Positions 10,340 to 29,147 of a stretch of 40,598 bases of DNA are shown here, piece by piece (position 1 is the stretch's first letter; each line of letters starts with the position of its first letter). Below the pieces are notes generated by a model. That model did no database searches. It was given only the letters and a program-made list of their open reading frames with translations, and was not told the origin of the DNA. The DNA is from Halonatronum saccharophilum DSM 13868. Lineage in GTDB: Bacteria > Bacillota > Halanaerobiia > Halobacteroidales > Halobacteroidaceae. The DNA lies in NCBI RefSeq assembly GCF_000517025.1, contig NZ_KI912097.1:150975-191572 (forward strand), given 5' to 3'. Made by a program: the position numbers and the translations under genes.

Positions 10340-10340
10340 C

Positions 10341-12149
10341 TTATGCACCCTCCTTATCTTTACTAGCGCCTACAGTTGTAGTGAATATACCTGAAAATCC
10401 TAGCTTTTGATGCCATTCTATAGCATTATGACCTTTCATAGGTGATTTACCATCATTATTTTTAACCAATAACTTTCTCATCTCCATAAAGTGATTCTTC
10501 AATTCAAATTCATGTGGGCAAACTATTGTACATTGACTACACATGTTACAAGAATAATGAATTAATGGAGCAACCTCACCTTTAATAATATCTTTAAAGA
10601 GATCTTTAGGTGAGATACAGAAGTCATTTAACATCTCACACTCTTGCATACATAGCTTACATTGACACTCCAAACATCTAAGGGCTTCTCCCCTTGCCTC
10701 TGATGGAGTATAAGCAAACTCAACCTCTTTAAAGTTTCCTCTCCTCTCATCTACAGGTAGCATTTTAATAGAGATTCTCTCTCTTCTTGGTTCATCTTCA
10801 GCTAATTCCTTCTTCAACCAACTTTGATAAGTACCCTCATAATCTCTATTTTCATATAAATTTTCACCTTTTAAATACCTATCTATTGAAGTTGCAACCT
10901 TTCTCCCATGGGCCATAGCCTCAATAGCCAATAAAGGTCTTCCTGCCCCATCACCACCTGCAAAAACCTTCTCCTTAGTAGTTTGTAATGTTACTGGGTC
11001 AACCTTAATCTTATTTCCTCGCATCAATTCAATGGAATCATCACCAGCTAAAAAGTCAGCTTCAGATGATTGACCGATAGCAAAGATAACATTATCAACT
11101 TCGATATCTTTTAGATTACAGACATCATAAGCCGGGTTAAAGCTGCCATCTTGATCAAAGACTTGAGTACATTTTTTTAAGGTTATACTTTCCACCTTAT
11201 CTTCCCCATTAATCTTCATTGGCCCCCATCCGTCATGGAGAGTGATTTCTTCTTCTAAAGCATCATCTATCTCCCATGAATGGGCTGGCATCTGATCTCT
11301 ACTTTCAACACAAGCTATATGAACCTCTTTGGCCCCTTCACGCCAAGCAGTTCTAGCTACATCCATTGCTACATTTCCACCGCCAATAACAAGAACTCTT
11401 TCACCTATTTCAACTTTATCATGCTTTTCTAAACCTGCTTTTCTTAAGATATCTACACCAGGTTGAACACCTGCTAAATCAGACCCTTCTATCGGTAAGA
11501 TAAAGCTTTTATGTGCTCCTACACCGATAAAGATAGCATCATAATCTTCTTCAAGCTTTTTAAAAGAAATATCTTCACCAACCTTAGTATTTAATTTGAT
11601 ATCTACACCTAATTTTTCTAAAATGCTATACTCTTTATCTATTACATTATGTGGTAATCGGTATTCAGGAATACCTACTCTTAGCATTCCTCCTACAACT
11701 GGCAAGGCTTCAAAGATAGTAACCTGATGGCCCATCTTTCTTAAATCATAAGCAGCTAAAGCACCTGCAGGACCTGATCCAATAATTGCTACCTTCTTTT
11801 CACTTTCTTCTTTCACATTTAGATCCCAATCCTTAGGATCATCACACTTATCTGCTACAAAACGTTTTAAGTTTTTAACAGATAAAGCATTATCAATCTC
11901 TTCTCTTTTGCACTTTTCTTCACAAGGGTGAGCACATACTCTCCCTAATATCCCTGGAAAAGGAGTTGTCTCTCTAATTAAATCTAAAGCTTTTTTATAC
12001 TCGCCTTCCCCAATCAATTTAACATAGCCTTGTACATCAATATGTAATGGACAAGTTGCTTCGCAGTATGGAGGTGCATCCCCCATACAATCTTCAACTA
12101 TTTCATTCATCTTAGTTACTAAGTCTTCTGGTAACCTTTCTGGTAACAT
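10341..12149 (-). CDS. FAD/NAD(P)-dependent Fe-S oxidoreductase (GltD/AegA-like)
   Basis: An oxidoreductase of about 602 residues. An N-terminal Fer4_20-type domain has the cysteines of CEATCPLHIDV and of RVCAHPCEEKC. The FAD Rossmann motif IGSGPAGALAAYDL and the second nucleotide motif VIGGGNVAMDVARTA follow. FAGGDGAGRPLLAIEAMAHG then closes the FAD site. The C-terminal 100 residues add ferredoxin-like clusters (CLECQCKLCMQECE and CNMCSQCTIVCPHE). It resembles glutamate synthase small-subunit-type reductases that feed electrons from NAD(P)H to partner proteins. The partner here is likely the CCG protein 1 bp downstream. I start it at the ATG 12147-12149 (MLPERLPEDL), preceded by AAGGAGGG. 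An upstream in-frame extension has no ribosome binding site and reads through promoter-like DNA. Confidence 0.9.
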   Translation of the reverse strand: MLPERLPEDLVTKMNEIVEDCMGDAPPYCEATCPLHIDVQGYVKLIGEGEYKKALDLIRETTPFPGILGRVCAHPCEEKCKREEIDNALSVKNLKRFVADKCDDPKDWDLNVKEESEKKVAIIGSGPAGALAAYDLRKMGHQVTIFEALPVVGGMLRVGIPEYRLPHNVIDKEYSILEKLGVDIKLNTKVGEDISFKKLEEDYDAIFIGVGAHKSFILPIEGSDLAGVQPGVDILRKAGLEKHDKVEIGERVLVIGGGNVAMDVARTAWREGAKEVHIACVESRDQMPAHSWEIDDALEEEITLHDGWGPMKINGEDKVESITLKKCTQVFDQDGSFNPAYDVCNLKDIEVDNVIFAIGQSSEADFLAGDDSIELMRGNKIKVDPVTLQTTKEKVFAGGDGAGRPLLAIEAMAHGRKVATSIDRYLKGENLYENRDYEGTYQSWLKKELAEDEPRRERISIKMLPVDERRGNFKEVEFAYTPSEARGEALRCLECQCKLCMQECEMLNDFCISPKDLFKDIIKGEVAPLIHYSCNMCSQCTIVCPHEFELKNHFMEMRKLLVKNNDGKSPMKGHNAIEWHQKLGFSGIFTTTVGASKDKEGA

Positions 12150-12218
12150 AAAATTCCCTCCTTGATTAGTGAAAGATATATTTTTCACAATTATATCTAA
12201 AAAAAGACTCTCAAGAAT

Positions 12219-12248
12219 ATTATAACCTCTAATCAGACTATTTGTCTT
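12219..12248 (-). promoter_or_regulatory. Predicted promoter of the oxidoreductase-HdrB-TVP38 operon
   Basis: On the minus strand AAGACA (12248-12243) and TATAAT (12224-12219) are separated by 18 bp. The perfect -10 lies about 70 bp upstream of the start at 12149, inside the long in-frame extension that I reject as coding. Confidence 0.45.
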
Positions 12249-12294
12249 TAGTATATAGTTATAATTTATAAACTGCTTTTTGTAGGTAAACAAC

Positions 12295-12328
12295 AAAGAG
12301 ATAAGCATATTAATATGCTTATCTCTTT
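12295..12328. terminator. Perfect 34-bp palindromic terminator
   Basis: The two 17-bp halves (AAAGAGATAAGCATATT and its complement, centre 12311/12312) form an uninterrupted hairpin after the split permease operon on the minus strand. T-rich bases follow. It separates the TsuA/TusA-like unit from the oxidoreductase unit. Confidence 0.75.
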
Positions 12329-12366
12329 AAATCAAGGCTTATTTTTGTTTGAAAAGACTAAGGAAA

Positions 12367-12921
12367 CTATAATAATAACTTCATTATTATCTTATTCCCG
12401 AAATAGACACCAGTTATAGCAAAGGGAAGATATATCCATCCATTTAAAGCTAAAGATGATATAGAAGAATAAAGACCTCCAATATTGCAACCAATTGCTA
12501 TTCTAGATCCATATCCCATTAACCACCCACCTACTAATACCATTATGAACTGTTTTTTATCTTTTATTCCCTTCAATTTAAAATTTTGAGTTAATAAAAT
12601 AGCGATTAAAGCCCCTATTATAATCCCTAAATTTGACCAAGTCTGCTTATCAAGCCAAGGTTCTGTATAGTAATCGTAATAAGTCCAAACAATCCATTGA
12701 CTAGAATTAACGCCGACTTTCTCTAAAACCCAAGCTCCCCAACGGGCCAAGTTGTTACTTATCCCCCAGTAATGCCCTGTTATTATAACATAAAGAAGAT
12801 TAAATAGGGCCAACAATATCCCGCCAAACCAATAAGGCCAAGGCCTATCAATTGCCTGAGATATCACTAACTGATAAAAGGTCTTATCATCTTTTAGTGA
12901 CTGTAATCTTCCACTCACCAA
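12367..12921 (-). CDS. YeeE/YedE-family permease, C-terminal half (split TsuA-like)
   Basis: A membrane protein of about 184 residues with four or more hydrophobic segments. Near its C-terminus it has GYGSRIAIGCNIGGLYSSIS, the cysteine-containing motif typical of the second half of full-length YeeE/YedE (TsuA) proteins. These import thiosulfate or related sulfur compounds by passing them along conserved cysteines. The first-half motifs are absent here but present in the gene at 13128, so the two look like one transporter divided in two. The start is a TTG at 12921 or a GTG at 12918, both near GAGGTG. It overlaps the end of the TusA-like gene by about 35 bp, implying coupled translation. A perfect palindrome at 12295-12328 follows the stop. 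Confidence 0.85.
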   Translation of the reverse strand: MVSGRLQSLKDDKTFYQLVISQAIDRPWPYWFGGILLALFNLLYVIITGHYWGISNNLARWGAWVLEKVGVNSSQWIVWTYYDYYTEPWLDKQTWSNLGIIIGALIAILLTQNFKLKGIKDKKQFIMVLVGGWLMGYGSRIAIGCNIGGLYSSISSLALNGWIYLPFAITGVYFGNKIIMKLLL

Positions 12922-13105
12922 AGCTCACCTCTTCCACTTCAACATCATACCCTCTCTTTCTAGCCCATTCAGGGACATTGGTCATAGCACAAGTATGATC
13001 TACCTCTATATAAATTTTATCACCTCTATTTAAATCTTTAATCCTTTTTTCCACCTTCATTAGAGGCAATGGACATGGTTCTCCAATACAGTCAAGTATA
13101 TTCAT
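12887..13105 (-). CDS. TusA-like sulfur carrier protein (TsuB/YeeD-like)
   Basis: A 72-residue protein of the TusA/SirA/YeeD family. The family signature CIGEPCPLPLMKVEK is at residues 5-19, with the persulfide-carrying cysteine in CPLPLMK and a second cysteine five residues earlier. A third cysteine lies in DHTCAMTNVPEW. The ATG at 13105 (MNILDCIG) is preferred because AAGGGGGAAG lies just upstream; the longer reading from 13135 has no such site. TusA-type proteins carry sulfane sulfur, and the TsuB subgroup works with the TsuA thiosulfate transporter. Here the gene lies exactly between the two halves of a TsuA-like permease, 22 bp after the first and overlapping the second. Confidence 0.93.
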   Translation of the reverse strand: MNILDCIGEPCPLPLMKVEKRIKDLNRGDKIYIEVDHTCAMTNVPEWARKRGYDVEVEEVSFGEWKITVTKR

Positions 13106-13127
13106 CTTCTTCCCCCTTATACAATTA

Positions 13128-13781
13128 TTATCCAAACTTATACTTTTCCCATAAGTAAGCTAAGACATATAGAATAATTAGTAGTAGTAACTGAATTAAA
13201 ATAGCCCATCTCCAACCAATAAGATTAGGTAGATGTGGAAAATCAATATCAGTAAACAATCTATACCATCTATCACCATCATAAGCACCATGGGTTGACC
13301 CAAAAATAAAGCCTAATAAAGCAATCCACTGTAATCTAAAACCTTCACCGATTCTAACTAGGGTTCCCGAAGCACAACCTCCACTTAAAGCAGCACCTAT
13401 TCCAAAGATCAATGCTCCAATAGGTATATGCCATCCTAAAGTAACAAATCTTCCTGGAAGGGGTAAGCCTTGAGAGAGTTGGTATATTTGAATCAAAAAA
13501 TATCCAATTGTCATAATAAATAATGATAATATAATTGCTCTAGCTAACTCTGTCATCCCAAATAAGATAGGATCACGTAAAGCTGCTGTAAAGCAGATTC
13601 TAGATCTTTGTAATGTAAATCCTACCAATAGTCCAAAGATCCAGGAATATGCTAAAGTTGAATCAATATAACTATAAAGGCAAATATATATCAGCAAAGA
13701 AAAAAGCGCTATGAGAAAAGACATCCTTCTCTGTTTAGGGAAGTTAATTTCTAAGCTTTTCTTCAATTTAGCATTGATCAT
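13128..13781 (-). CDS. YeeE/YedE-family permease, N-terminal half (split TsuA-like)
   Basis: A polytopic membrane protein of about 217 residues. It holds both first-half motifs of YeeE/YedE transporters: LQRSRICFTAALRDPILF around residues 55-72 and GGCASGTLVRIGEGFRLQW around residues 133-151, each with a conserved cysteine. TsuA of this family imports thiosulfate and usually has both halves in one chain of about 350 residues. The start is uncertain: the ATG at 13781 (MINAKLKKS) has GGGAG 11 bases upstream and overlaps the regulator gene by 14 bp. Upstream ATGs at 13799 and 13805 lack a good site. It is the first structural gene after the PucR-type regulator, probably in one operon with it. 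Confidence 0.85.
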   Translation of the reverse strand: MINAKLKKSLEINFPKQRRMSFLIALFSLLIYICLYSYIDSTLAYSWIFGLLVGFTLQRSRICFTAALRDPILFGMTELARAIILSLFIMTIGYFLIQIYQLSQGLPLPGRFVTLGWHIPIGALIFGIGAALSGGCASGTLVRIGEGFRLQWIALLGFIFGSTHGAYDGDRWYRLFTDIDFPHLPNLIGWRWAILIQLLLLIILYVLAYLWEKYKFG

Positions 13782-15060
13782 ACTTAAAGCACTCCCCATC
13801 TTCACAAATAATGAATTTATTAATTTTATATGCTGTAGCTAAATTTAATTTAACTTCAAAATCTGAGAGATCTAGCTTTAGTATATCTTCAATCTTTTTA
13901 ATTCTATATCTCATGGTGTTTGGGTGAATATGCAAGGCATTCGCTCCTTCTTTTATGCTCCCATCTTTCTTTAAAAGAACTCCTAGGGTATTAACAAGGT
14001 CACTATTATTCTTTTTATCATATTCTATTAAATCAGATAATAAATCATCTTTGAAGTTGATTAAATCAGAGCAATTAACCTTCCAAAGCAACTTCAATAT
14101 ACCCAGTTCTTCATAAAGCAAGGTTCTTTTTTCTTTATTAGATATATCTAAAAAATCCAAGGCATAAAGCCCTTGTTTATAGCTAAAAGATATATTAGAG
14201 CAATCATATAAAAATGCCCCACCGCCAATAGAGATAATTAACTTTTTAAATCGTTTTTGTAAGAGTTTATATATATAACCTAAGTCATCTCCGATCTCTT
14301 TTGAAGGTTTATCATAATTAATTAATAAGAGGATATGTTTATTATAAGAAAATATTATATACTTTCTAGATATATTAGACCTAATAATTCGATGTAAGCT
14401 TTGAACGATTTTATCTTCTAATTCATAATTATAAAGAAAATTTCCTTTTTCTCCTTTAGAATCTTTAGAGGAGTTGGCCCTTATTAGAAATAACTGATAA
14501 GGAACTGTTAAATCCCATCCTGCTAATTCGCCGCTTTTAATTAATTCTTCTTTATTATCTATCTTTCCTTGCAATAAGTTTTCAATCAACTCATTACTAC
14601 ATTTTTGGGCCAACCTTTGAATTAAAGAATTTTGATGTAATTTCAAAGTTATAGCATAAACCCCTTGTAGGACTAATGGATAATCAACTTTCTTAAGTTC
14701 TTTAGTTTCGGCTATAACTAAAACCCCTAAAAAATCATTATTATTACCAAGCCTAATTTGAATTTCGCTAAACTCATTTTTCTCCCAAAGGTATTTAACC
14801 CTTTCAATTTTATTATTGCCCTTTTTATATACTACCTCTTTTTTTATAAACTTTCTATTATCAAGATAAGAATAAAAATTTAATCCTCTTTTTAAGTCTC
14901 TATCCACATACAGTGGATTTTCACGATATTTATCTAAGATAAATATTTTATTATCAATTTCACTGCGCAATAGATTACATAAGCTTCTTAGCCCACCATC
15001 ATTTAACAAGATATTTTGGTATCTTTCCTGCAAAGAGAATAATTTATCTTTATTTATCAT
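13768..15060 (-). CDS. PucR/CdaR-type transcriptional regulator
   Basis: A 430-residue DNA-binding protein. The C-terminal 70 residues contain the HTH_30 domain typical of PucR and CdaR, with the recognisable core NALHIHPNTMRYRIKKIEDI. The middle (about residues 160-320) resembles the GGDEF-like domain that precedes it in this family. The N-terminal 150 residues are a variable, possibly ligand-sensing region with no motif I can name. It has no membrane segment. GGGGAGAAG precedes the ATG. It is immediately upstream of, and overlaps by 14 bp, the split permease operon, so it most likely controls uptake and processing of a sulfur compound in response to that compound. Its binding site is not evident from one locus. 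Confidence 0.88.
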   Translation of the reverse strand: MINKDKLFSLQERYQNILLNDGGLRSLCNLLRSEIDNKIFILDKYRENPLYVDRDLKRGLNFYSYLDNRKFIKKEVVYKKGNNKIERVKYLWEKNEFSEIQIRLGNNNDFLGVLVIAETKELKKVDYPLVLQGVYAITLKLHQNSLIQRLAQKCSNELIENLLQGKIDNKEELIKSGELAGWDLTVPYQLFLIRANSSKDSKGEKGNFLYNYELEDKIVQSLHRIIRSNISRKYIIFSYNKHILLLINYDKPSKEIGDDLGYIYKLLQKRFKKLIISIGGGAFLYDCSNISFSYKQGLYALDFLDISNKEKRTLLYEELGILKLLWKVNCSDLINFKDDLLSDLIEYDKKNNSDLVNTLGVLLKKDGSIKEGANALHIHPNTMRYRIKKIEDILKLDLSDFEVKLNLATAYKINKFIICEDGECFKYDQC

Positions 15061-15166
15061 CTTCTCTCCCCTTTATAAGTCTAAATTTATCAGACACTTC
15101 GATTATATCCTAACAATTTTTATTATATGATAATTAAGAAAGAAAAGAAAGGGTTAAAAACTAAAA

Positions 15167-15193
15167 AGAAGGAGGGTAATTTCCCCTCCTTCT
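15167..15193 (-). terminator. Rho-independent terminator of the rhodanese gene
   Basis: A 10-bp stem, AGAAGGAGGG (15167-15176) and CCCTCCTTCT (15184-15193), is followed on the minus strand by two T runs. It lies 8 bp after the rhodanese stop codon and isolates that gene from the PucR gene downstream. Confidence 0.88.
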
Positions 15194-15200
15194 AAATCAC

Positions 15201-16160
15201 TTAATCTTTTTCTATAGGTAAATCTTCTCTGTGGCTCCATTCAATCCATGATCCATCATAGTTCTTAACATCCTCATAACCTAGCAGTTGGCTTAAAACA
15301 AAGGTAGTATGAGCTGAACGAACACCAGATTGACAATAATTAATAACCCCTTTATCAGAAATTATCCCATTTGCTTCATAAAGGTCTCTTAATTCATCAG
15401 CAGTTTTAAATAGATTCTCTTCATTTAAGACTTCAGTCCACTCAATAAAATATGTTGACGGGATTCTCCCAGCTCGATTTGCCCCACCCAATTGATTTGT
15501 ACCAGTATTTTCATCTTGAGAACGAGTACATAAAACAACAGTCTCTTGATCCTCAATAGCTGCTAAAACATCATCTAGTGATGCTAACATAGACTCATTA
15601 ACATCGCCTAATCTGTACTCTACAGCATCTCTACTAGGACTGGACATAGTAGTGTTATAGCCAATTGCTCTCCAGTAATCTAAACCTCCATCCAATAGTC
15701 TAACATCTTTATGACCGATCATAGTCATCATCCACCACATTCTAGCCGCGTCATGACCACCACCTGAAGTGTAGATAACAACGGTATCGTTATTACTAAT
15801 ACCATTTTCACCTAACCAGTTAGCCAAACCTTCATGAGATATTCTCATACCTGCATACTCGTGGTCTGGGTCTGTAACATCGCTACGCCATACTTGGATC
15901 GCACCTGGTATATGACCAAGAACATACTGATCATTCCTCCTAAAATCAATTACAGCTACGTCATCTTGATCTTTAACCTCTTTTAATTCTTGAGCACTAA
16001 TTAAAACACTAGAATTATCATAACCCCTCTCTTCAATCGGAATATAATTTTCTTCATCAACCTTTAATGTAGTACGTGTACTAATTCTTACAAATGTAAA
16101 AACTCCAACAATAATAACAGCCAATAAAATTGCAAAAACAGACTTCTTGTTAAATTTCAT
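15201..16160 (-). CDS. Membrane-anchored or exported sulfurtransferase, two rhodanese domains (YnjE-like)
   Basis: A 319-residue protein. Residues 7-25 form one hydrophobic segment after a basic N-terminus (KFNKKS), with no lipobox cysteine, so it is secreted or anchored with the enzyme outside the cytoplasm. The first rhodanese domain (about 55-170) includes VAVIDFRRNDQYVLGHIPGA, but at the active-site position it reads YTSGGGHDAAR with no cysteine, as usual for the structural domain. The second domain (about 190-319) has NYCQSGVRSAH with the catalytic cysteine at 276. Two-domain rhodaneses transfer the sulfane sulfur of thiosulfate to acceptors. A promoter candidate lies at 16229-16257 and a terminator follows, so it is a single-gene unit. 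It shares the region with a TusA protein and a TsuA-like permease. Confidence 0.92.
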   Translation of the reverse strand: MKFNKKSVFAILLAVIIVGVFTFVRISTRTTLKVDEENYIPIEERGYDNSSVLISAQELKEVKDQDDVAVIDFRRNDQYVLGHIPGAIQVWRSDVTDPDHEYAGMRISHEGLANWLGENGISNNDTVVIYTSGGGHDAARMWWMMTMIGHKDVRLLDGGLDYWRAIGYNTTMSSPSRDAVEYRLGDVNESMLASLDDVLAAIEDQETVVLCTRSQDENTGTNQLGGANRAGRIPSTYFIEWTEVLNEENLFKTADELRDLYEANGIISDKGVINYCQSGVRSAHTTFVLSQLLGYEDVKNYDGSWIEWSHREDLPIEKD

Positions 16161-17818: not shown

Positions 17819-20116
17819 TTAATGAATTTTAACTAAAGCTTGGATCTCATCTAAGTCTTTTTTTAATAAATATCTCTTAAAAGCTCTACTCTCTTCTAAA
17901 GCTTTGCGTAACTTACTCTTATATCTTACTTCTTTACTTTTTCCTTCTCTTCCCTTTTTAATAAAGATACTCCTTCTTTCTATAAATTCTAACTCAATTA
18001 AACCTTCCTCCTGCAAATAACGTAATGCTAAAATTATATTTCCTTCTTCTTCACCAGTTAAAGAGGCTAATTCTTCAATTTTAGTAATTCCTTTTTCCTG
18101 TTCTATTATTCCTTTAATAATCTGCATTAGCTCTCTTAAAAAATCTTTATCCGACTTCAATTGAATCTTAGAATAAGCTAATAGTACTCTTTGGGGTTGG
18201 ATATTTTTTAATATATCTTTAAAGACACCTAAAGTTGGAGGAGTAGAAAGAAGGACTAAATCTTTAGCCTTATCATCTTGATAACGATTAATTATTGGAG
18301 TAAATGAAATATCTTTAGTGCCTTCATAATAATAAAGTGGATTATTTAAAGGCGGCAATTCTTCTCCTAATTCGCGCCAATTCCTATAATCTTCAAAATT
18401 TATTTCGATCTCCTTCTCTTTGCGAACTCCTTCTATAGAAGTACCTATTACCTCTTCTATAATCATTTGAAGATTTACTCTACCTCTCCACTCGTTTATA
18501 TCTAAAGAGTAAGTTAAATCCATTTTATCCTTTAAAGTCTCTTCATCTCCACTCCACCATAAGGCAGATATTTTCTTTTCACCTTTTCCTAAGGTTAACT
18601 TTAAATGTTTACCATCTCCTACCTTACGATAATTAATCAACTCTAGACCTTGACTATAAAAACTTGGACGAGGATTTCCTTCTCCAAAAGGGGCCAACAA
18701 TTCAAGTTTGTGATAAAGGTCTAAGTTAAGCTTTGACAATGGTAACTTAGCATCAACCTCAATTTTTCGCACTTTTCCTACCTTTTTCATTTCCCGAGCC
18801 AACACTCCATTCAACCTAGCCTTAAATTCCTCTAAGTTATCTCTTTTCAAAGATAACCCTGCTGCTCCAGCATGACCACCAAATCCTAATAGTAAATCGT
18901 CACACTCCTTTAAAGCTTCTCTAATATGTATTTGAGGTATGGATCGAGCTGACCCTACTATTACTCCTTCTTCTCCTCTTTTGTTGGCCAAAAAGACTGT
19001 AGGCAACTTAAAATTTTCACATAATCTTCCTGCACCAATACCAATAATTCCTTGATTCCATTCTTTTTTATATAAGATAATTGAGGTCAGTTCATCTTCT
19101 TTACTCAAAAGACTCCTAGCCTCATCCTCCATCTGCTGAGTCAACTCTTTTCTTTTGCTATTAATAGAGTCTAACCTTTGGGCCAACTTCTTAGCTTCAC
19201 TTCTATCTTCACTTAAAAGTAATTTTAAGGCTAAACTGGCATTAAATAATCTCCCAGCTGCATTAATCCTTGGCCCTAGTCTAAAACCAATATCAATTTC
19301 AGATAAATTGAAGGGATCAATGCCACTTACCTTACAAAGTTCTTGAATACCAACTGATTTAGCTGATTTTAAAGCCTTTAGACCCTTTTGTAATAAGTAA
19401 CGATTTTCACCATAAAGAGGAACCACATCTGCTACTATAGCTAAAGCTAAAAACTCTAAAAGAACCTCGCTTTTATCTTCTTTAGACTCCTTATTGAGCA
19501 ATCCTTTAGCTAAAAAGTAAGCCATCCCAGCTCCAGGTAAGTGATAAGCAGAATCATCCTCTTCTAAAAGCTTAGGTGACAATATTAGACGAGCAGGTGG
19601 TAACTTATCTGGCAAACCGTGGTGGTCAGTAATGATTACATCCAGCCCTAAATCATTGGCTAACTCCACCTCTTCATAGTTAGAGATACCACAATCACAG
19701 GTTATTATCAAATCAATTCCTTTTTTAGCTAATTTTTTAATTACCCCCCTATTCATACCATATCCTTCTGTAAAACGGTCAGGAAGGTGGTAAGAGACGT
19801 TGGCCCCTAAGGTTCTCAAAGTCTTTATCAAAATTGCAGTAGAGCTTACCCCATCTACATCATAATCACCATAGACAAGAATTGATCTATCCTTAGCTAT
19901 AGCATCAAGTATAATCTCAACACCTTCTTCTAGTCTTGGAAAATAAGAAGGTTTTATACCAAGGTGTTCTTCTGGATTTAGGAATTCATCTAATTTTTTA
20001 ATTGTATCTATCCCTCTATTTAATATAACCCTTGCTAAAAGGTGATCATCGTCAACCTTATTTAATAGCCACTTAGGAATCTCTAGATCCTTCTTATAAT
20101 TCACTTTTAAATCCAT
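17819..20116 (-). CDS. recJ: Single-stranded-DNA-specific 5'-3' exonuclease RecJ
   Basis: A 765-residue DHH-family nuclease that degrades single-stranded DNA from 5' ends in recombination and repair. Motif I is VYGDYDVDGVSST (about residues 80-92), followed by TCDCGIS and the DHH triad in IITDHHGLP. The DHHA1 motif GFGGHAGAAGLSL lies near residue 405, and OB-fold residues follow. The C-terminal 200 residues extend beyond the core. They end in a winged-helix-like segment (KIEELASLTGEEEGNIILAL) that may bind DNA or a partner. It is followed on the minus strand by the asparaginase gene after 150 bp and preceded by the nuclease gene by 54 bp. Its neighbours are all DNA-end-processing genes. RBS: AGGGGAGG before the ATG. 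Confidence 0.95.
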   Translation of the reverse strand: MDLKVNYKKDLEIPKWLLNKVDDDHLLARVILNRGIDTIKKLDEFLNPEEHLGIKPSYFPRLEEGVEIILDAIAKDRSILVYGDYDVDGVSSTAILIKTLRTLGANVSYHLPDRFTEGYGMNRGVIKKLAKKGIDLIITCDCGISNYEEVELANDLGLDVIITDHHGLPDKLPPARLILSPKLLEEDDSAYHLPGAGMAYFLAKGLLNKESKEDKSEVLLEFLALAIVADVVPLYGENRYLLQKGLKALKSAKSVGIQELCKVSGIDPFNLSEIDIGFRLGPRINAAGRLFNASLALKLLLSEDRSEAKKLAQRLDSINSKRKELTQQMEDEARSLLSKEDELTSIILYKKEWNQGIIGIGAGRLCENFKLPTVFLANKRGEEGVIVGSARSIPQIHIREALKECDDLLLGFGGHAGAAGLSLKRDNLEEFKARLNGVLAREMKKVGKVRKIEVDAKLPLSKLNLDLYHKLELLAPFGEGNPRPSFYSQGLELINYRKVGDGKHLKLTLGKGEKKISALWWSGDEETLKDKMDLTYSLDINEWRGRVNLQMIIEEVIGTSIEGVRKEKEIEINFEDYRNWRELGEELPPLNNPLYYYEGTKDISFTPIINRYQDDKAKDLVLLSTPPTLGVFKDILKNIQPQRVLLAYSKIQLKSDKDFLRELMQIIKGIIEQEKGITKIEELASLTGEEEGNIILALRYLQEEGLIELEFIERRSIFIKKGREGKSKEVRYKSKLRKALEESRAFKRYLLKKDLDEIQALVKIH

Positions 20117-20170: not shown

Positions 20171-20980
20171 TTAAAAATCAAATTCTTCAATTTGATCCCA
20201 ATCTAAATCTAAATTCAAATCTTCTTCTTCCACATCAACCTTTAATGCTTCCTCACCATGACAAAGGGGGCGATATTCACAATAAAGACAAGCTTTATTG
20301 TTATCAGTAGGATAAAACTCATCAATTTCTAAATTTTTTATCTCTTTAATTAATTTCTTAATTCTATCTTCATCACGTTCAAATTGCCATTGTGTATAAT
20401 TAAGAGGTTGATAATCTTTAGGGTAACGAGGATTCCAATAGATTAAAATTATATCCTCTAAGGGCCAACTACCTTTTTGGTGATAATTACCTCCACCTTT
20501 AACCAAAAGATATCTATAAACTATAGTCTGTAAATTGTTCTCCCAGTATTCTAATTTAGGCTGTTTCTTATAAGTCTTCCAATCATAAATTATCCCTTGT
20601 CCTTCTTGGCCAAGATAAAGCAGATCATATTTAGCCATTAATTTAATCCCACTCTCATTAACCCTGATCTCTTGCTCTGGGTAGAATTTAGCATTATCAT
20701 TATAAGGTCTAAAAGATATTAAATTCTCTAGCCATTTCTCGATTTGAAGTGAGATTAGATTGGTAGGATCTACAATCCGACCACGCTCATAATACCTTTG
20801 AGCCAAAGTATGAAAATCTTGCCCCTCTTTGAATATATTCTTATCTTCAGGGCTTTGAACCCAATCGCTAGGCCAGTATAAGCCATCTAAATAGCGACGT
20901 TTAAACTTCAACCTACAAGTTTCATAGGTCTTCAAAGCCGAAGCACTAAAGTACATATCCTCTAAATTTCCCTTTAACAT
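20171..20980 (-). CDS. Free-standing RecB-type PD-(D/E)XK nuclease with Fe-S cysteines
   Basis: A nuclease of about 269 residues of the PDDEXK_1 family. Counting from the ATG at 20980, the RecB-nuclease residues are all visible: H57 in GQDFH, E104 in EQEIRV, D119 in AKYDLLYL, D133-W-K135 in IIYDWKT, and the Q-x3-Y motif in LQTIVYRYLL. Four cysteines, C22 (YETCRLKF) and C231-x2-C234-x5-C240 (CLYCEYRPLC), match the Fe-S arrangement at the ends of the AddB nuclease domain and of Cas4. The length is that of an isolated domain. No cas genes are nearby; a helicase pair lies directly upstream. I prefer the ATG at 20980 over the GTG at 20989 on RBS spacing. It probably trims DNA ends opened by the neighbouring helicases. 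Confidence 0.87.
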   Translation of the reverse strand: MLKGNLEDMYFSASALKTYETCRLKFKRRYLDGLYWPSDWVQSPEDKNIFKEGQDFHTLAQRYYERGRIVDPTNLISLQIEKWLENLISFRPYNDNAKFYPEQEIRVNESGIKLMAKYDLLYLGQEGQGIIYDWKTYKKQPKLEYWENNLQTIVYRYLLVKGGGNYHQKGSWPLEDIILIYWNPRYPKDYQPLNYTQWQFERDEDRIKKLIKEIKNLEIDEFYPTDNNKACLYCEYRPLCHGEEALKVDVEEEDLNLDLDWDQIEEFDF

Positions 20981-21039
20981 CCTTCTCACACCCTTATTTA
21001 TATGTATGATTTTTTAGAAGTGACACTTTGTAGTAATAA

Positions 21040-21192
21040 AGTGGCAGTTTCGTGCCACTAGTAATGGGTAATGAGTGAAGAGTAATGAGTAAAGTCAAAA
21101 TCTCAAAACCTCTTATAAGTCTTAGGTAACAAAGGGGTTTCTGTTTTCTTAAGGTTTTACCCATTACTCATTACTGATTACTCATCACCAGT
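21040..21192. repeat. Heptad inverted-repeat element (copy C, most complete)
   Basis: The order is: hairpin (AGTGGCA 21040-21046, TGCCACT 21053-21059); left arm of 7-bp units TAATGGG, TAATGAG, TGAAGAG, TAATGAG (21060-21092); a core with AAAACCT, AAAGGGGTTT and AAGGTTTTA blocks; and a right arm (21155-21192) which on the minus strand reads TGATGAG, TAATCAG, TAATGAG, TAATGGG. It occupies most of the 223-bp gap between the nuclease and helicase genes. Confidence 0.75.
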
Positions 21193-21212
21193 AATAAAGC
21201 TACGCTTTATTA

Positions 21213-23444
21213 CTATATAACTTCACTCTTTTCCTTTATATAACGCTCTAAGACATGGAATATATAGCTGACACCGATATCATTTAGCTTGCTTCCATCC
21301 CAATTTTTCCTCTTGTCATAACCACTTAGAGTCAACCTTTTCTTGGCCCTAGTTATCCCCACATAAAGTAAACGTAGGCGTTCGCTTATTATCTCTATCT
21401 TGGACTCTTTAATAGAATCACCTACAATTTTACCTCTGAAGTTCTTGTCAAAATCTGCTTTAGCTATTGCCACTGGATTAGATTTATCATCTTTTAAATA
21501 CCAGGCTTCACCTTTGAATTTATCTTCTAAAGTAGATGGATATTCATCAGATACAAGGGAAATTATAAAGACTCCATCCCACTCTAAACCTTTAGATTTA
21601 TGTGCTGTTAAAACAGTAATTACTCCTTTTTGTGGTTCAAACCCTTTAGCATCATATAACTTCTTAGCTAAAGAGATAAAAGAAGGCTCTAATTCTTTTA
21701 TCTCATCAACAACTTCTTTAAGCTTCCAACTGGGGTTCTCTCTTAATTTATCTTTGACATAAAGTGCCATACCTTGGGCCAAGGCTAATATATCATCTTG
21801 TAGCTCTAACTCTTGGGCTAGATGAAGAATTAATTCATCAGCTGATAATTTCATACTAGCCTTTAGCCACTGACGAAGCTTCTCTAAAGCACCTTTAAAT
21901 TCACTTAAAAGCTTAGCTCTAGCAAAAACCTCATCTGGTAGTTCTAAAGGAGATAACTCACCAGAGATCGGATAGATTAACTCTGCTACTGATCGTTTTT
22001 CAAGAAGTCGTTCAACTCCAGCTAACTCTTCTCCGCCAAAAGATTCTAAGAGTACACTATCTAAAACCTTTAATAGTTGGCCCTTTTTATAAGGGGTAGC
22101 AAGGTAGTAAATAATGTCTTCTAAAGTAGATATGGTAATTTCTTGCTTAGATGAAATATTCCCTACCTCTTCAAAAGAAGCCCCCTTCTTCTTAAGTAAT
22201 TCTATCACTTCTTTTTGAGTATAGTTATTAGGAACTAAGATAGCAACTGTATCTTCACTATGTTCTTTAGAATAATTTATTGCCTCTTCAACTATTCCCT
22301 CTAGCTCCTCTTCTCTAGTTGTAAACCTTCTTGTCTTAATCCCGTACTCATCAATTTTAGGATTTGGAAAAGGGTCATTATTATCGACTGGATCAATGAA
22401 TTGTTTTTCCAAAGCGTCTTGGCATTTTTTTACCGGATGTTCTTTGTTTGCCCAAGTTACTAAATAATTGGCAAGATCAATTATACTTAAAGTACTCCTA
22501 CTTGAAGATAATATAGCACCTTTCTTAACATCTTCTCTCTTAGCAAAGGATCTAAAGACTTCAGGCTCTGCTAGAGTAAAAGAACCCATAATAGATTGAT
22601 TAGAATCACCTACTCTAATTAGATTACCTTTCTCCTTAGAGAGTAAAAAGAGAATCTGTTCTTGTAATATATTAGAATCCTGTGCCTCATCTTCAAAGAT
22701 AAAAGTCCATCTTTTCCCTAAACGCTTTCTTAACTCCTTATCTTCTTTTAAAAGTTTCCAAGAATTCAAGAGAAGATCATTAAAATCAAGCCATCCATTT
22801 CTAGCTAGCTCCTTTGAATACTCTATAAAGATTTCACAAGCCCAAGCTAAATAGGAATAGTCACTGACCTTTCCATGAAGTTTCCCTACCTTATGTATAT
22901 CCATCCCGTGGCCTTTAAGGTGACCAATCATAGATTTTACTAAGCCTGGAAAAACTCTAGTTGACCAATTCTCAAAGGCTATATCATGCCACTTACTTCC
23001 TTTAGAACAATCAATGATATGCTCCCATTGGTCTGTATTTTCTTTCAGCCACTTATATATTATTCTATTAATAATCTTCCATTCTTCACTCTCATCTAAA
23101 ACCTTAAAATCGCTATTTATCATTAGATGATCAGGTCTTTCTTTCAAAATTGTCATAGCTAAAGAATGGAGTGTCTTAACCTCAAAGCTACCTCTACCTT
23201 CTATTCCCTTAGCCTCTAAAAAGTTTTCAATCCTACTTCTAAAGTTAGAGACGGCTGAATTCATATAAGTTACAATTAAGATTCTACCATCTTCAATTCT
23301 CTTCTCTTCGATTAATTTAGCAGCCAAATAAGCTAGGGTAAAGGTCTTACCAGCTCCTGGAACTGCCGGAACAGCCATCATACCTCCTTCATACTTAGCT
23401 ACCTCTGTCTGTCCATCTCTAAGCTTAATCTTACTAAAGTCCAT
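21213..23444 (-). CDS. UvrD/Rep-type superfamily 1 helicase (AddA-like, no nuclease domain)
   Basis: A 743-residue ATP-dependent DNA helicase. Walker A is VPGAGKTFT with lysine 33. The Ia motif is in VTYMNSAVSNFRSRI, motif II is FIFEDEAQDSN and motif III is RVGDSNQSIMGS. Motif V is in VLTAHKSKGLEWDGVFI and motif VI in LRLLYVGITRAKKRL. All motifs needed for ATP hydrolysis are intact. Unlike AddA or RecB it stops shortly after motif VI, with no nuclease domain. The nuclease downstream and the degenerate helicase upstream (23677) suggest that it is the motor of a three-part AddAB-like complex. TCGGAGGTG precedes the ATG. The first residues (MDFSKIKLRDGQTEV) match the usual Q-motif position. Confidence 0.92.
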   Translation of the reverse strand: MDFSKIKLRDGQTEVAKYEGGMMAVPAVPGAGKTFTLAYLAAKLIEEKRIEDGRILIVTYMNSAVSNFRSRIENFLEAKGIEGRGSFEVKTLHSLAMTILKERPDHLMINSDFKVLDESEEWKIINRIIYKWLKENTDQWEHIIDCSKGSKWHDIAFENWSTRVFPGLVKSMIGHLKGHGMDIHKVGKLHGKVSDYSYLAWACEIFIEYSKELARNGWLDFNDLLLNSWKLLKEDKELRKRLGKRWTFIFEDEAQDSNILQEQILFLLSKEKGNLIRVGDSNQSIMGSFTLAEPEVFRSFAKREDVKKGAILSSSRSTLSIIDLANYLVTWANKEHPVKKCQDALEKQFIDPVDNNDPFPNPKIDEYGIKTRRFTTREEELEGIVEEAINYSKEHSEDTVAILVPNNYTQKEVIELLKKKGASFEEVGNISSKQEITISTLEDIIYYLATPYKKGQLLKVLDSVLLESFGGEELAGVERLLEKRSVAELIYPISGELSPLELPDEVFARAKLLSEFKGALEKLRQWLKASMKLSADELILHLAQELELQDDILALAQGMALYVKDKLRENPSWKLKEVVDEIKELEPSFISLAKKLYDAKGFEPQKGVITVLTAHKSKGLEWDGVFIISLVSDEYPSTLEDKFKGEAWYLKDDKSNPVAIAKADFDKNFRGKIVGDSIKESKIEIISERLRLLYVGITRAKKRLTLSGYDKRKNWDGSKLNDIGVSYIFHVLERYIKEKSEVI

Positions 23445-23530
23445 ATCTTCACCTCCGAAATTACTTGTATATTTATAAATTGTAATCTTTCAACTTAATA
23501 ATATTCAAAACCTTTAAATCCAAGTCATCA

Positions 23531-23637
23531 ACTCTGACAACACCAGCGACTAAACCTTTGACTTAAATCTGACTAGATCTTTTTTTTTTATGTTCTTGTC
23601 GCGAACTTGTCGGCTCTTATCAGGGTTTTGTCAGAGT
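23531..23637. other. Possible structured leader between the two helicase genes
   Basis: A perfect 10-bp inverted repeat (ACTCTGACAA 23531-23540, TTGTCAGAGT 23628-23637) bounds 107 bp that includes the direct repeat CTTGTCG (23595-23601, 23606-23612) and a run of T on the plus strand near 23580-23590. Local composition is richer in CG steps than the surroundings. It could be an attenuator, an mRNA leader or a decayed mobile fragment. No coding frame is convincing in 23445-23676. Confidence 0.35.
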
Positions 23638-23676
23638 CTAAGCTTTTGATTTTGACCTTCTTAAATTATTTCACTT

Positions 23677-25635
23677 TTAAATATTAAACACTTCAGCCAG
23701 CTCTCCAGTCTGTTCCCAACCTCTACTATCTAATTTGCTATCACCTAGGTATAAGCCATGGGTCACCTTTGCTAGAATGCCTTTTAAATAAGATACTAAT
23801 TGTTCCTCTTTGGCCTTTCTATCATAAAGGTCATTCCATTCTCCTTCTTCATTCTCTCGGGCCAATATATAAGGATTACTCAACTCTTTACTAGCCCCTA
23901 GGTACCATAATTCGCTAGAAGTATCTAGCAAAAATAAATATTTGACACTTTCAATATAAGGGAAGGCTAGAAAACTATATGGTGTAGCCAATATAACCTT
24001 CTCTTCTATAGCTTGAGAGTCAACCAATAGATCAGCTGCCAAAGTCCCTTCGTTAATCATCTGAATAAACCTATGACCCAAATCTCTTTCCTCAAAGTCC
24101 TTAAACTCTTTCATAACCTTCTTAAACTTTACAAAAGAATTAATTAATTGACGACAGGATAAGATATCTTCAGCTTGGGGATGTAGAGGTGATAATATCC
24201 CTCCAAAAGCTGAACGAAAGAAGTACTCTAATTCTAATTCTTCTTCCCTTCTATCTTCAACCCATTCTCTAAATTTATCATACTTTTCACTTAAACTAAA
24301 TCCAATCTCCCCTCTGATTCCGATATGGTCTAAATTGGGCAATACCATCTTGTTCTCCTTAACCTTTTGGGCCAACAGAGAAGATCTAATAGGATCTAAA
24401 TCTAATATTAGATTTAAAACTTGGGTTATAGCAGTAGTACTGATTTCAATCTCCCATTCTCGCTTAACTAATAAAGTTAAAACTATCAACCCTTGGGCAA
24501 AAGAGTTATCTAATAGAAGTCGATTCTTACTTAGGCTTATCAACTGATGTCCATTTTCCTTTAAATAACTTTCTAAGTTAAATTCCAATACCTTATCTGG
24601 AAAAGGAGTAATGATAGCAATTTCTTTAGGGTTTATACCTCCTGCTAATAATGAGGATATCTCTTCTCCAATCTTAAAGATCATCTCTCCTCTTAACTCT
24701 TCTTTGATTATCTTTTTAATAAAGGGAGTAGGAGTAACCTCTCTTCCGTCCAATATTCTATCCCCAAGTTTTTGGGCCAACTCACGTCCCTCTTTAGAAG
24801 AGGTATATGACTCTTCTAATTCAATTATCTTTTCACCGTTAACAAACCTCTCTTTAGCCAATTGAGGAGCAGAACCAAAAAATTTAGCAAAATCACCTTC
24901 TTCATTAAATGAAATGTAGGTTTCCTCAACCCCTTGCATAATTACATCTATTAAATCTTGGGCTACAGGAACCATCTTCTCTAAATCGTCTATAATTAAA
25001 TATTTATATCTTCCCTTTAATTCTTCTAAATAACCCTTTCTTTTAACTAAATATTTATTATATAGGTGTAAGAGAAGTGAATAATCAATACAGCGCCTTT
25101 CTAAGCAGAGTTTACGAAAGCCTTTCATTACCTTCAAACCTATCTTATAAGTAAATTTTTTTTCACCATTATCTGCTAAAGATACTAATCTATCTCCAAC
25201 CTCCTCTATACTCAATCCATTTAACTCACTGTAGTTAAGATTATCTATTAGTTGTACCCCAATTTGAGATGAGGTAGATCTTACATCCTTAAAAGAACCC
25301 TTTTCTCGCTCTTTTTCTACTAATTGAGTCATTAGATAGTGAGCAGGCTCTACAGTCATAAAGATAGGGGCCAAAGCCTTTCTTTCGCCAAGATCTTCTT
25401 CGATTAAATCCCAGTACTTTTGAATTTCCCGTTGCAAAAACCCAAAGTAACTATAAATATGTAAAGAACCCATCTTGTTTAGATCAAGATCATTTCTCCA
25501 CCTTCTTACACTATTTGAGTCATTAGTAAAGACAAGAATTTCTTCAGTTCTTACTTCTCTAGCAAGTTTTTCATACTTCTCTTGTAATTTTGTACTCTTA
25601 CCTGATCCTGTTGACCCGGTATATATGTAAGACAT
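23677..25635 (-). CDS. AddB-like degenerate helicase subunit (UvrD-like fold)
   Basis: A 652-residue protein with a clear P-loop at the N-terminus (YTGSTGSGKST, lysine 13). The helicase motifs downstream are degenerate. Motif II reads YLIIDDLEKMVP, with DD in place of DE. The segment after it (IISFNEEGDFAKFFGSAPQ region and LEESYTSSKEG) keeps the helicase layout. The C-terminus (KEEQLVSYLKGILAKVTHGLYLG) resembles an eroded motif VI with no arginine finger. AddB and RecC are inactive helicases of this kind. In AddB, however, the fold is fused to an Fe-S nuclease domain, which here is the separate protein at 20171. It is separated from the helicase gene by 232 bp. Annotated relatives are often called recombinase-like proteins. 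Function is inferred from context. Confidence 0.75.
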   Translation of the reverse strand: MSYIYTGSTGSGKSTKLQEKYEKLAREVRTEEILVFTNDSNSVRRWRNDLDLNKMGSLHIYSYFGFLQREIQKYWDLIEEDLGERKALAPIFMTVEPAHYLMTQLVEKEREKGSFKDVRSTSSQIGVQLIDNLNYSELNGLSIEEVGDRLVSLADNGEKKFTYKIGLKVMKGFRKLCLERRCIDYSLLLHLYNKYLVKRKGYLEELKGRYKYLIIDDLEKMVPVAQDLIDVIMQGVEETYISFNEEGDFAKFFGSAPQLAKERFVNGEKIIELEESYTSSKEGRELAQKLGDRILDGREVTPTPFIKKIIKEELRGEMIFKIGEEISSLLAGGINPKEIAIITPFPDKVLEFNLESYLKENGHQLISLSKNRLLLDNSFAQGLIVLTLLVKREWEIEISTTAITQVLNLILDLDPIRSSLLAQKVKENKMVLPNLDHIGIRGEIGFSLSEKYDKFREWVEDRREEELELEYFFRSAFGGILSPLHPQAEDILSCRQLINSFVKFKKVMKEFKDFEERDLGHRFIQMINEGTLAADLLVDSQAIEEKVILATPYSFLAFPYIESVKYLFLLDTSSELWYLGASKELSNPYILARENEEGEWNDLYDRKAKEEQLVSYLKGILAKVTHGLYLGDSKLDSRGWEQTGELAEVFNI

Positions 25636-26075: not shown

Positions 26076-27083
26076 TTAAATAACTCCTTTATAATCGCTC
26101 TCTAAGATACTTACTAACAACTCGACTCCATTTTGAACATCATTGATATCGATCATCTCTGAAGGAGAGTGAATATAACGGCACGGTATCGATATAGCTC
26201 CTGCTAAGACTCCATCACGACTAAGCTGTATTCCACTTGTATCTGAACCACCTGCTTCTAACACCTCTAGCTGATAGGGTATACCCTTCTCTTTAGCTAT
26301 CTCAACCATCATTCCCTTTACCTTAGGTGGTACTAAAACTGAACTATCTTTAACCTTAATTGTTGGCCCTTCACCTAAGGATACTTCCATCCTCTTGGCT
26401 TCAGGTGTATCACCGGTCCTAGTAACATCGACTGCAATTCCGAAATCAGGCTCTATACCATAAGCTGATGTTTTGGCCCCTCTTATACCTACCTCCTCTT
26501 GTACTGTAAAGACAAAGTAAGTATCATAGGTAGGTTGGCCCTTTAATTTATTTAAGGCTTCAATTAAGAAGGCTACTCCTATTCTATCATCTAATGATTT
26601 GGCAACTATTCTATCTCCTAACTCATCCATTCTTCTATAATAAGAAGCAGTATCCCCAACCTTAACCTTTTTTAGAGCTTCTTCTTTATTTTTGGCCCCT
26701 ATATCTATATACATTTTATCCAACTTCAATTTAGATATATCATCTAGTTTGGCTTCCTTATCGATTACACCTACTGTTTTATCATTAAATATTACTCTCT
26801 CTCCCAGTAAAGTATGGGTTGGAAGACCACCGATATTAGAGAACCTTATGAATCCTTCATCATCTATGTGGGTAGCTATGAAACCAATTTCATCCATATG
26901 AGCTGCTAACATTACACTCTTTTTTGAGCTTTCACCCTTTTTAAGAGCGATTAAGTTTCCCATATTATCTACCTTTATCTGGTCTACCTTCTCTGCAATC
27001 TTTGCCCTTATAACTTCTCTAATCTTATCTTCACTTCCTGACGGGCCAAAGGCTTCCACTAAATCTTTAATTAATTTTTTCAT
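26076..27083 (-). CDS. M42 family metallo-aminopeptidase (third of three)
   Basis: A 335-residue dinuclear-metal peptidase of the M42 (TET/glutamyl aminopeptidase, CelM-like) family that removes N-terminal residues from short peptides, usually as a large multimer. Metal and catalytic residues are in AAHMDEIG, SLDDRIG, the EE pair of VQEEVG, the aspartate of IAVDVTRTG, and the histidine of YIHSP. The start is the ATG at 27083 (MKKLIKDLVEAFG) because GGGGAGG lies just upstream and this is the usual N-terminus; the reading from 27152 extends into the preceding gene. It overlaps that gene by 17 bp in another frame. It is last in the three-gene unit. Confidence 0.93.
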   Translation of the reverse strand: MKKLIKDLVEAFGPSGSEDKIREVIRAKIAEKVDQIKVDNMGNLIALKKGESSKKSVMLAAHMDEIGFIATHIDDEGFIRFSNIGGLPTHTLLGERVIFNDKTVGVIDKEAKLDDISKLKLDKMYIDIGAKNKEEALKKVKVGDTASYYRRMDELGDRIVAKSLDDRIGVAFLIEALNKLKGQPTYDTYFVFTVQEEVGIRGAKTSAYGIEPDFGIAVDVTRTGDTPEAKRMEVSLGEGPTIKVKDSSVLVPPKVKGMMVEIAKEKGIPYQLEVLEAGGSDTSGIQLSRDGVLAGAISIPCRYIHSPSEMIDINDVQNGVELLVSILESDYKGVI

Positions 27084-28104
27084 TGCTAAAACCTCCCCTT
27101 TCAATCTCTTGGCAGAAATTATGAACCAATTTAGTAGCAGTCTTATAATCATCTAAATTTACCAAAGATACTGGTGAATGAATATAACGACAGGGAACAG
27201 AGATTATTGCAGTAGGAATCCCTTCTCTACTTAAATGAATAGCCCCTGCATCAGTTCCTGCTTTAGTAAATCTTCTAAATTGGTATTTAAGCTCCTTCTT
27301 CTCACAGATCTCTATTAACTTATTTAATATTCTCTTATCAACAATTGTTGATCCATCCATTATTGTTAGAGCAGGGCCATCACCTAAGACTGTAGAATAC
27401 CCTTCTTCTTTAGCATCAGGTAGATCAGCAGCAGTAGTTCCTTCTAAAACCAAAGCTAAATCTGGGTTTATATCCCATGAAGCAACCTTTGCTCCCCTAG
27501 TTCCTACCTCCTCTTGAACAGTAAAGACTCCATAAAGAGGAAAATCATAATCTTCCTTCAATATCCTAATTAATGAAAGGCAGCCTATCCTATCATCAAA
27601 GGCTTTTCCCTTAGCAATATTAGAACCTATTTCTTTATATTTAGTATCGAAGGTTGCCATATCGCCTAAGTTTATCAGTTTTTCACTCTCTTCTTTAGAC
27701 TTGCTACCTATATCTATATATAACTCTTTATAATCTAAAGGCTTCTTTCTTTCATCAGGTTTCTGTAAGTGTATAGCTTTGGCCCCAATAACTCCTTTAA
27801 TCTTTTTTTTACCAACTAGTACCCTTTTAGATACTAAAATTCTCTTATCTATCCCACCCACAGGCTTAAAGCTTAAAAGTCCATCTTCAGTTATATCGCT
27901 AATCATTAATCCAATTTCATCCATATGTGCTGCTAACATTAACTTTGGCTTGTCCTTATTACCCTTCTTGTAAACTATTAAATTCCCCAAAGCATCAGTT
28001 CTAATTTCATCAACATAATCTTTAATCTCTTCTCTAATTATATTTCTAACCTCATTCTCACAGCCTGAAACCCCAACAGCTTCACTTAATCTCTTTAAAA
28101 GCAT
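27067..28104 (-). CDS. M42 family metallo-aminopeptidase (second of three)
   Basis: A 345-residue paralogue of its two neighbours. It keeps AAHMDEIG, AFDDRIG, VQEEVG and YIHSP, but the metal-ligand position that is aspartate in the other two (VDV/IDV) is glutamate here, in LALVLEGTTAAD, together with GTDAGAIH at the dinuclear site. Glutamate occurs in part of the M42 family, so the enzyme is probably active with a different substrate preference. The start at 28104 lies inside the previous gene (10-bp overlap) and the end overlaps the next by 17 bp, showing tight translational coupling. It is cytosolic, with no signal peptide. The pair on either side may form mixed assemblies with it. Confidence 0.92.
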   Translation of the reverse strand: MLLKRLSEAVGVSGCENEVRNIIREEIKDYVDEIRTDALGNLIVYKKGNKDKPKLMLAAHMDEIGLMISDITEDGLLSFKPVGGIDKRILVSKRVLVGKKKIKGVIGAKAIHLQKPDERKKPLDYKELYIDIGSKSKEESEKLINLGDMATFDTKYKEIGSNIAKGKAFDDRIGCLSLIRILKEDYDFPLYGVFTVQEEVGTRGAKVASWDINPDLALVLEGTTAADLPDAKEEGYSTVLGDGPALTIMDGSTIVDKRILNKLIEICEKKELKYQFRRFTKAGTDAGAIHLSREGIPTAIISVPCRYIHSPVSLVNLDDYKTATKLVHNFCQEIERGGFSNEKIN

Positions 28105-29147
28105 CTTAACCCCTCCACAAATTCTCCATTTAAATCACCAATAAAGTGGGTCAACAACCTTGCCCCTCTTCTAATATCCTCCATACTGACTGTCTCTACT
28201 GAAGTATGCATATACCTCAAAGGGATAGAGATAAGCCCTGTAGCAACTCCACAACGGCTTACTTGAATAGAATAAGCATCAGTACCTCCAGGTCTAGTTG
28301 ATGGTTCTACCTGGTAAGGGATATCTAATTTGTCTGCCAGATCTTTAAAGCGATTAAATATCTGAGGATGAACATGAGGGCCAAAGCCTATAGCAGGTCC
28401 TTCTCCTAACTCAGAAGCATCTTCTTTAGAGACGCCAGGCATAGTAGCATGACAAACATCAATTGCTATTCCTACATCAGGGACTATACCATAGGTACTA
28501 GTGATTGCCCCTCTAACACCTACCTCTTCTTGTACTGTAGCTACTGCATAAATATCAGCTCTATGCTTTAACTTACTCAGCAACTTAATTATCTCTAAAA
28601 TCATTAATACTCCAGCCCTATCATCTAAGGCCTTTCCTGTTACTCTATCATTTCTTAATGAAGAGAACTCTCTTTTTACAGTAATAGTGTCACCTATCTG
28701 GACTAAAGATTTGACCTCCTCCTCACTCAAACCTAAGTCTATGTACATATCTTTAACCTTAAAAGCTTTCTTTTGCTCTTCTTTACTTTGGATATGAGGA
28801 GGTTTAGCTCCTATAATCCCTATTAAGGATTCTTTGCCATAAATAACTATCTCTTGGCCTACTAAAGTCCTTTGGTCTACACCACCTACAGTTGTAAAAC
28901 GTAAGAAACCACCTTCTTCAATCTTTGTTACCATTAGCCCTATCTCATCCATATGTGCGGCTAACATTATCTTAGGTCTATTCTCTCCTTGACCCTTCTT
29001 ATAAGCAATTAAATTTCCCATAGTATCATATCTTATATCATCTACATAAGTCTCAAAGCTAGAGGATATTGTCTTAGCAATATCTTCTTCATAACCTGAA
29101 ACACCTAACTCTTCAGATAACTTCTTTAAAAACATCTTGTCCTCCAT
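28095..29147 (-). CDS. M42 family metallo-aminopeptidase (first of three)
   Basis: A 350-residue member of the same family. Motifs: AAHMDEIGLMV, ALDDRAG, VQEEVGVRG, AIDVCHATM and LRYMHTSVE, so all five metal-binding and catalytic positions are kept. In the last motif, threonine-serine replaces the SP of its paralogues. AGGAGG lies 7 bases before the ATG at 29147 (MEDKMFLKK). It is the first gene of the unit, and the promoter is probably in 29148-29224, a gap without clear motifs. Divergence between the three copies is large, so the duplications are old and each likely prefers different peptides. Confidence 0.92.
   Translation of the reverse strand: MEDKMFLKKLSEELGVSGYEEDIAKTISSSFETYVDDIRYDTMGNLIAYKKGQGENRPKIMLAAHMDEIGLMVTKIEEGGFLRFTTVGGVDQRTLVGQEIVIYGKESLIGIIGAKPPHIQSKEEQKKAFKVKDMYIDLGLSEEEVKSLVQIGDTITVKREFSSLRNDRVTGKALDDRAGVLMILEIIKLLSKLKHRADIYAVATVQEEVGVRGAITSTYGIVPDVGIAIDVCHATMPGVSKEDASELGEGPAIGFGPHVHPQIFNRFKDLADKLDIPYQVEPSTRPGGTDAYSIQVSRCGVATGLISIPLRYMHTSVETVSMEDIRRGARLLTHFIGDLNGEFVEGLRCF

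Follow-up and report, generated by a model that had tools for sequence, protein, structure and literature searches.

In the AddAB enzyme, the 5' strand is degraded by the nuclease of AddB, and the nuclease of AddA is kept from the 3' strand by Chi (PMC4824097). One survey of the recombination genes of bacteria reported many genomes without known presynaptic systems and suggested that still-unknown ones may exist (PMC1193525). We examined a locus in the genome of Halonatronum saccharophilum DSM 13868 (2.88 Mb, 99% complete), within a stretch of 40,598 nucleotides (G000:C8:150975-191572; hereafter, the window). Four genes on its minus strand, transcribed in the order Deg, Hel, Nuc and RecJ, form a module that is a concrete candidate for such an unknown presynaptic system. 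A sequence-only reading of the window, whose gene coordinates were correct, had described the first three as an AddAB-like machine split into three chains beside a RecJ. We found no prior description of the module in the open-licence papers searched.

Motor, degenerate partner and nuclease

Hel (21213..23444, minus strand; 743 aa) is an SF1A helicase of the UvrD/PcrA/AddA type. In the domain search, it matched PF00580 (165 bits) and UvrD_C, that is, the UvrD N- and C-terminal domains only, and the C-terminal PD-(D/E)XK nuclease of AddA was absent. Motifs I, II (DEAQD), III (GDxNQ), V (THxxKGLEW) and VI (RLxYVxITRA) were invariant or nearly so across 29 sequences, which bears out the earlier description of a helicase with all SF1 motifs and no nuclease domain. 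Hel scored 120 bits against the AddA model TIGR02785, whose cut-off is 708, and a quick tree with long branches placed it outside the group joining AddA and PcrA (SH-aLRT 91). By these comparisons, Hel bears no specific likeness to AddA.

Deg (23677..25635, minus strand; 652 aa) appears to be a pseudo-helicase subunit. Its P-loop, GxxxxGK(T/S), is kept, whereas the DE of motif II has become D-[D/N/E], with D or N in place of the catalytic glutamate in 28 of 30 sequences; the glutamine of motif III is gone (GG/GD), and no TRA-type motif VI was seen. The sole Pfam match was a weak one to PF00580 (28.5 bits), no nuclease domain is present, and the NCBIfam models, including the AddB model TIGR02773, gave no match. 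The AlphaFold model (pLDDT 89.5) predicts a complete UvrD-type fold, which Foldseek placed as near to UvrD (E 9e-19) as to AddB (3u4q_B, E 9.5e-18). Deg had been likened to AddB for its good P-loop and degenerate later motifs, and the likeness extends to the fold: both are degenerate UvrD-fold proteins. In AddB, however, the Fe-S nuclease is part of the polypeptide itself, whereas here it is encoded by a separate gene.

That gene, Nuc (20171..20989, minus strand; 272 aa), encodes a stand-alone PD-(D/E)XK nuclease of the RecB/AddB/Cas4 type with four Fe-S cysteines; its start is more likely the inner ATG near 20980, where aligned relatives begin. It matched PF12705 (99 bits) and carries the pattern C...CxxCx5C. 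No variation was seen in 32 sequences at C25, C234, C237, C243, H60, E105, D122, K138, Q154 or Y158, and almost none at D136, in agreement with the claim of a separate small nuclease holding the RecB catalytic set and this cysteine pattern. A Nuc profile matched the C-terminal nuclease domains of AddB (E 3e-13), placing it in the AddB-type Fe-S PD-(D/E)XK group, and its score against the Cas4 model was 19.1 bits, below the cut-off of 65. Structural matches of the Nuc model (pLDDT 87) comprised the Cas4-family nuclease ACE1, the nuclease domains of AdnA and AddB, and human EXO5. A separate cas4-like ORF lies elsewhere in the genome (L007:7219-7809), and a weak, stop-containing PD-(D/E)XK remnant (G000:C5:62284-62697; L005, L008) lies near an ORF resembling a RAMP-type CRISPR protein (L008:9382-10344).

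Nuc (20171-20260 in the window) and all its homologues share an acidic C-terminal tail, conserved as DLDWDxIEEIxF or, more loosely, W-[DE]-x-[IV]-E-E-[IF], which was modelled with low confidence and is probably disordered. An SSB-like reading of this somewhat similar tail was rejected, since a considerable fraction of the sequences lacks the terminal Phe; we therefore retain the tail as a possible docking peptide, with RecJ, Deg or Hel as candidate partners.

The host operon also contains two dispersed repeats. A palindromic, MITE-like repeat of ~182 bp (21031..21212, minus strand) has entered the junction of Hel and Nuc, a tight one in relatives; the repeat has at least 40 genome copies at 88-99% identity and a strong predicted hairpin over its 182 bp (z -4.85). 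Between Deg and Hel lies a ~160-bp member of a second family (23504..23664, minus strand), whose dozens of diverged matches cluster on contig C3 at ~190-214 kb. Rfam and tRNA searches for RNA elements gave no match. Elsewhere in the window, three consecutive M42-type peptidase genes lie upstream of the operon (26076-29147), an arrangement shared only with two other loci. A further cluster (9569-16160), comprising a YedE-like transporter, a rhodanese, a GltA-like oxidoreductase, a dicluster-binding protein and a CdaR-type regulator, resembles one for selenium/sulfur metabolism.

A conserved operon with its own RecJ lineage

We fetched 39 further loci around other Deg homologues. Deg, Hel and Nuc occur in the same order and on one strand in all 39, so their association is far beyond chance; the co-occurrence on which the sequence-only reading was to be judged is thus near perfect. 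Most of the Deg-Hel and Hel-Nuc junctions in these loci overlap or abut. RecJ comes next after the trio in 35 of the 37 loci in which the contig continues, and is absent in two (L129 and L133). In several Halanaerobium loci (L053, L054, L056, L057, L070), an extra gene of ~195 aa (MF..DYQLRYIYHTNQ...) stands between Nuc and RecJ.

The module occurs in dozens of bacteria from many families, including all eight Halanaerobium-type (g15) genomes sampled. Deg is present in 23 of 41 genomes (the host's own and its relatives) and, at full length, in ~28 of 398 genomes sampled from the phylum, the other matches there being weak helicase cross-matches. The cross-phylum evidence consists entirely of plasmid records, with one four-gene case: plasmid pSR56 of Salinibacter ruber M8 (Rhodothermota) carries the four genes in unchanged order, with Deg and Nuc at ~25-27% identity. 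Its Hel scored 521 bits against the Hel profile, compared with 63 for the host's own AddA-like gene. A plasmid of Ilyobacter (Fusobacteriota) carries a lone Deg homologue. The flanking genes are of housekeeping types, which differ between families and are syntenic across Halanaerobium species, and no fifth constant gene emerged among the neighbours of the loci compared. The four proteins have correlated pairwise distances (Spearman 0.70-0.86), and most of these correlations exceed those with the housekeeping RecJ (0.55-0.74), which supports the link without deciding it.

The RecJ of the operon (17819..20116, minus strand) is a RecJ by its score against TIGR00644 (528 bits, cut-off 397) and by its DHH, DHHA1 and OB domains. 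Its catalytic motifs are intact, as befits a DHH 5'-3' ssDNA exonuclease, and the D.D.DG and DHH motifs were found in 36 of 36 operon RecJs. Within the class, all 23 genomes with the trio have two RecJ genes, and none of the 18 genomes without it has a second one (17 have a single RecJ and one, a 57% complete genome, has none). The contrast also appears within families (for example, between g4 and the other members of family f1, and between g8 and the other members of f2), which argues against shared descent alone. A maximum-likelihood tree of 63 RecJs placed all 36 operon copies, Salinibacter included, on one side of a branch supported at 100/98, the other side holding 20 housekeeping RecJs from phylum genomes and 7 from other bacteria. 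We read the operon RecJ from this tree as a dedicated paralogue, a private lineage additional to the housekeeping RecJ; together with the copy count, the tree rules out a chance neighbourhood. The link of RecJ to the trio, first raised as a possible source of 5' end resection, is therefore stronger than supposed, RecJ being a fourth gene dedicated to the module. The housekeeping RecJ of some relatives (L168-L172, L184, L185) is unusually long, at 1100-1220 aa, with a C-terminal extension.

These data bear on the explanation that the four genes encode independent, merely co-transcribed repair enzymes, Hel being an extra UvrD-type helicase, Nuc a free exonuclease, RecJ an extra gap exonuclease and Deg something else. 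The further small gene that separates RecJ in several Halanaerobium loci speaks for it. Against it stand a gene order that has persisted through great divergence and between phyla, the overlapping genes and a RecJ lineage private to the operon, and we consider independent enzymes highly improbable.

Coexistence with AddAB and a proposed role at DNA ends

The host's addA-like gene (L006:9335-12451; G000:C8:633335-636451) is broken. It has 910 aa, compared with 1162-1190 aa for intact addA of relatives; its frame breaks after motif VI, and the nuclease domain is missing, its first residues alone remaining in another frame. The addB-like gene (L006:6432-9335; 967 aa) is open, with its nuclease present. 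No further addA/recB-type gene was seen in the host genome, which leaves the trio as the one intact set of its type seen there. A complete addAB elsewhere, joined with a lack of co-occurrence, had been named as the outcome that would count against the proposal; with addA broken and co-occurrence near perfect, the finding stands. A type I restriction locus with HsdS- and HsdR-like ORFs lies just upstream of the broken gene.

The trio is accompanied by intact AddAB-type pairs in G001, G004, G010, G014, G017, G243, G310 and G376, and Halanaerobium has beside it an intact pair of a different type (AddA-type genes of 1066-1077 aa in G019 and G037). Replacement of AddAB as a general rule is thereby ruled out, and the module is not simply a missing resection enzyme. 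The fixed operon with its private RecJ suggests an undescribed end-processing system that acts beside, not instead of, classical AddAB.

The same comparisons speak to whether the module is a true AddAB with split genes, Hel deriving from AddA minus its nuclease, and Deg and Nuc from AddB. Its domain inventory is that of AddAB, the Nuc profile matches the AddB nuclease, as noted, and the profile of Deg finds some N-terminal parts of AddB (E 8e-14). Its matches to Hel and AddA, however, are about as good, and this origin is very unlikely given that Hel lies outside the AddA and PcrA group in the quick, long-branched tree, that Deg has no TIGR02773 match and that AddAB-type pairs coexist in the same genomes. 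Judged by the tests made, the module is AddAB-like in its parts, yet neither a member of AddAB nor a split orthologue of it. Of the proposed three-chain AddAB, the AddAB-type parts in three strictly co-occurring chains are upheld, and the AddAB identity is not.

On balance, we favour a four-gene module that processes double-stranded DNA ends by one-sided resection with its private RecJ. Hel would be the single active 3'-5' motor that unwinds the duplex. Deg would be a pseudo-helicase with the same two tasks as AddB and RecC, keeping the complex together and guiding the strands once unwound. Nuc would act as an Fe-S exonuclease on the 5'-terminated strand, equivalent to the AddB nuclease domain, and the private RecJ would continue 5'-3' degradation of that same strand. 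The assignment of both nucleases to the 5' strand is made by analogy, and one-sided resection is the simplest inference because a nuclease of the AddB type is the only one retained and the RecJ that joins it is a 5'-3' enzyme. Since the module has no counterpart of the AddA nuclease, which cuts the 3' strand, it would supply RecA with long single-stranded 3' tails from the outset, with the 3' strand intact and no need for Chi. Counting against this explanation are the patchy distribution, which would be expected of an accessory or defence role too, a Hel that is not specifically AddA-like, and two genomes (G376, G084) with the trio and no adjacent RecJ.

That patchiness in the phylum is equally what anti-phage defence predicts, in which the complex would recognise the ends of invading linear DNA and degrade it with RecJ. 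Carriage on the 56-kb plasmid pSR56, beside an XRE-type regulator gene and near an antitoxin-domain gene, fits this as well, as do the best PADLOC match of Hel, GajB of Gabija, and the best structural match of the Nuc model, the Argonaute-associated Cas4-family nuclease ACE1 (9iac, E 3e-7). The GajB matches, however, are generic UvrD matches. Gabija (GajAB) shares with the module a UvrD-type helicase, but among the four genes none matched GajA (OLD ATPase/TOPRIM), and the constant neighbours of Hel are Deg, Nuc and RecJ. Moreover, the module is found in all eight sampled Halanaerobium-type genomes and in housekeeping surroundings that are syntenic across Halanaerobium species and free of defence genes. 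With these flanks and no fifth constant gene, a defence island is ruled out, as is a phage origin, by the lack of any match in phage records or viral contigs. Overall, we consider defence unlikely and recombinational repair reasonably probable, repair being favoured by the syntenic housekeeping flanks, the lack of phage occurrence and the nature of the parts.

A wider proposal, which we offer tentatively, is that the module may be an undescribed presynaptic system in which a three-chain helicase-nuclease and a RecJ lineage of its own produce 3' tails through degradation confined to the 5' strand. The system would have spread by transfer across Bacillota-type bacteria and into another phylum, and would act beside AddAB or, where AddA has decayed as in the host genome, in place of AddAB. 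RecJ, usually free-standing, is here tied to an AddAB-type motor through an operon-only lineage, so the roles proposed for the enzymes at DNA ends can be tested directly. With motor, strand guide and nuclease on separate chains, each can be removed one at a time.

Comparison with known systems

AdnAB of mycobacteria combines two UvrD-fold subunits with RecB-type nuclease, and the Nuc and Deg models match the AdnA/AdnB fold. In AdnAB, each subunit bears a nuclease domain, whereas neither UvrD-fold chain of the module, Hel or Deg, has one. Like Cas4 and ACE1, Nuc is a small, stand-alone, Fe-S nuclease of the RecB type; unlike them, it falls below the Cas4 cut-offs and always stands beside helicases, and no cas or argonaute genes were found adjacent.

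HerA-NurA is an end-resection pair of a helicase and a nuclease that makes 3' tails (PMC9960219). The module resembles it in likewise joining helicase and nuclease parts. The motor and nuclease families of HerA-NurA are unrelated to those of the module. The operon RecJ shares with other bacterial RecJs the DHH, DHHA1 and OB domains and intact catalytic motifs, and differs from them in forming a lineage of its own, confined to this operon and additional to the housekeeping RecJ.

The closest likeness in parts is to AddAB (Bacillus subtilis AddA/AddB; RexAB), with which the module shares an intact SF1A motor, a degenerate UvrD-fold partner and an AddB-type Fe-S PD-(D/E)XK nuclease. In contrast to AddAB, it has three chains instead of two, dispenses with the AddA-type second nuclease, uses a motor from outside the AddA group, keeps a private RecJ in its operon and coexists with true AddAB.
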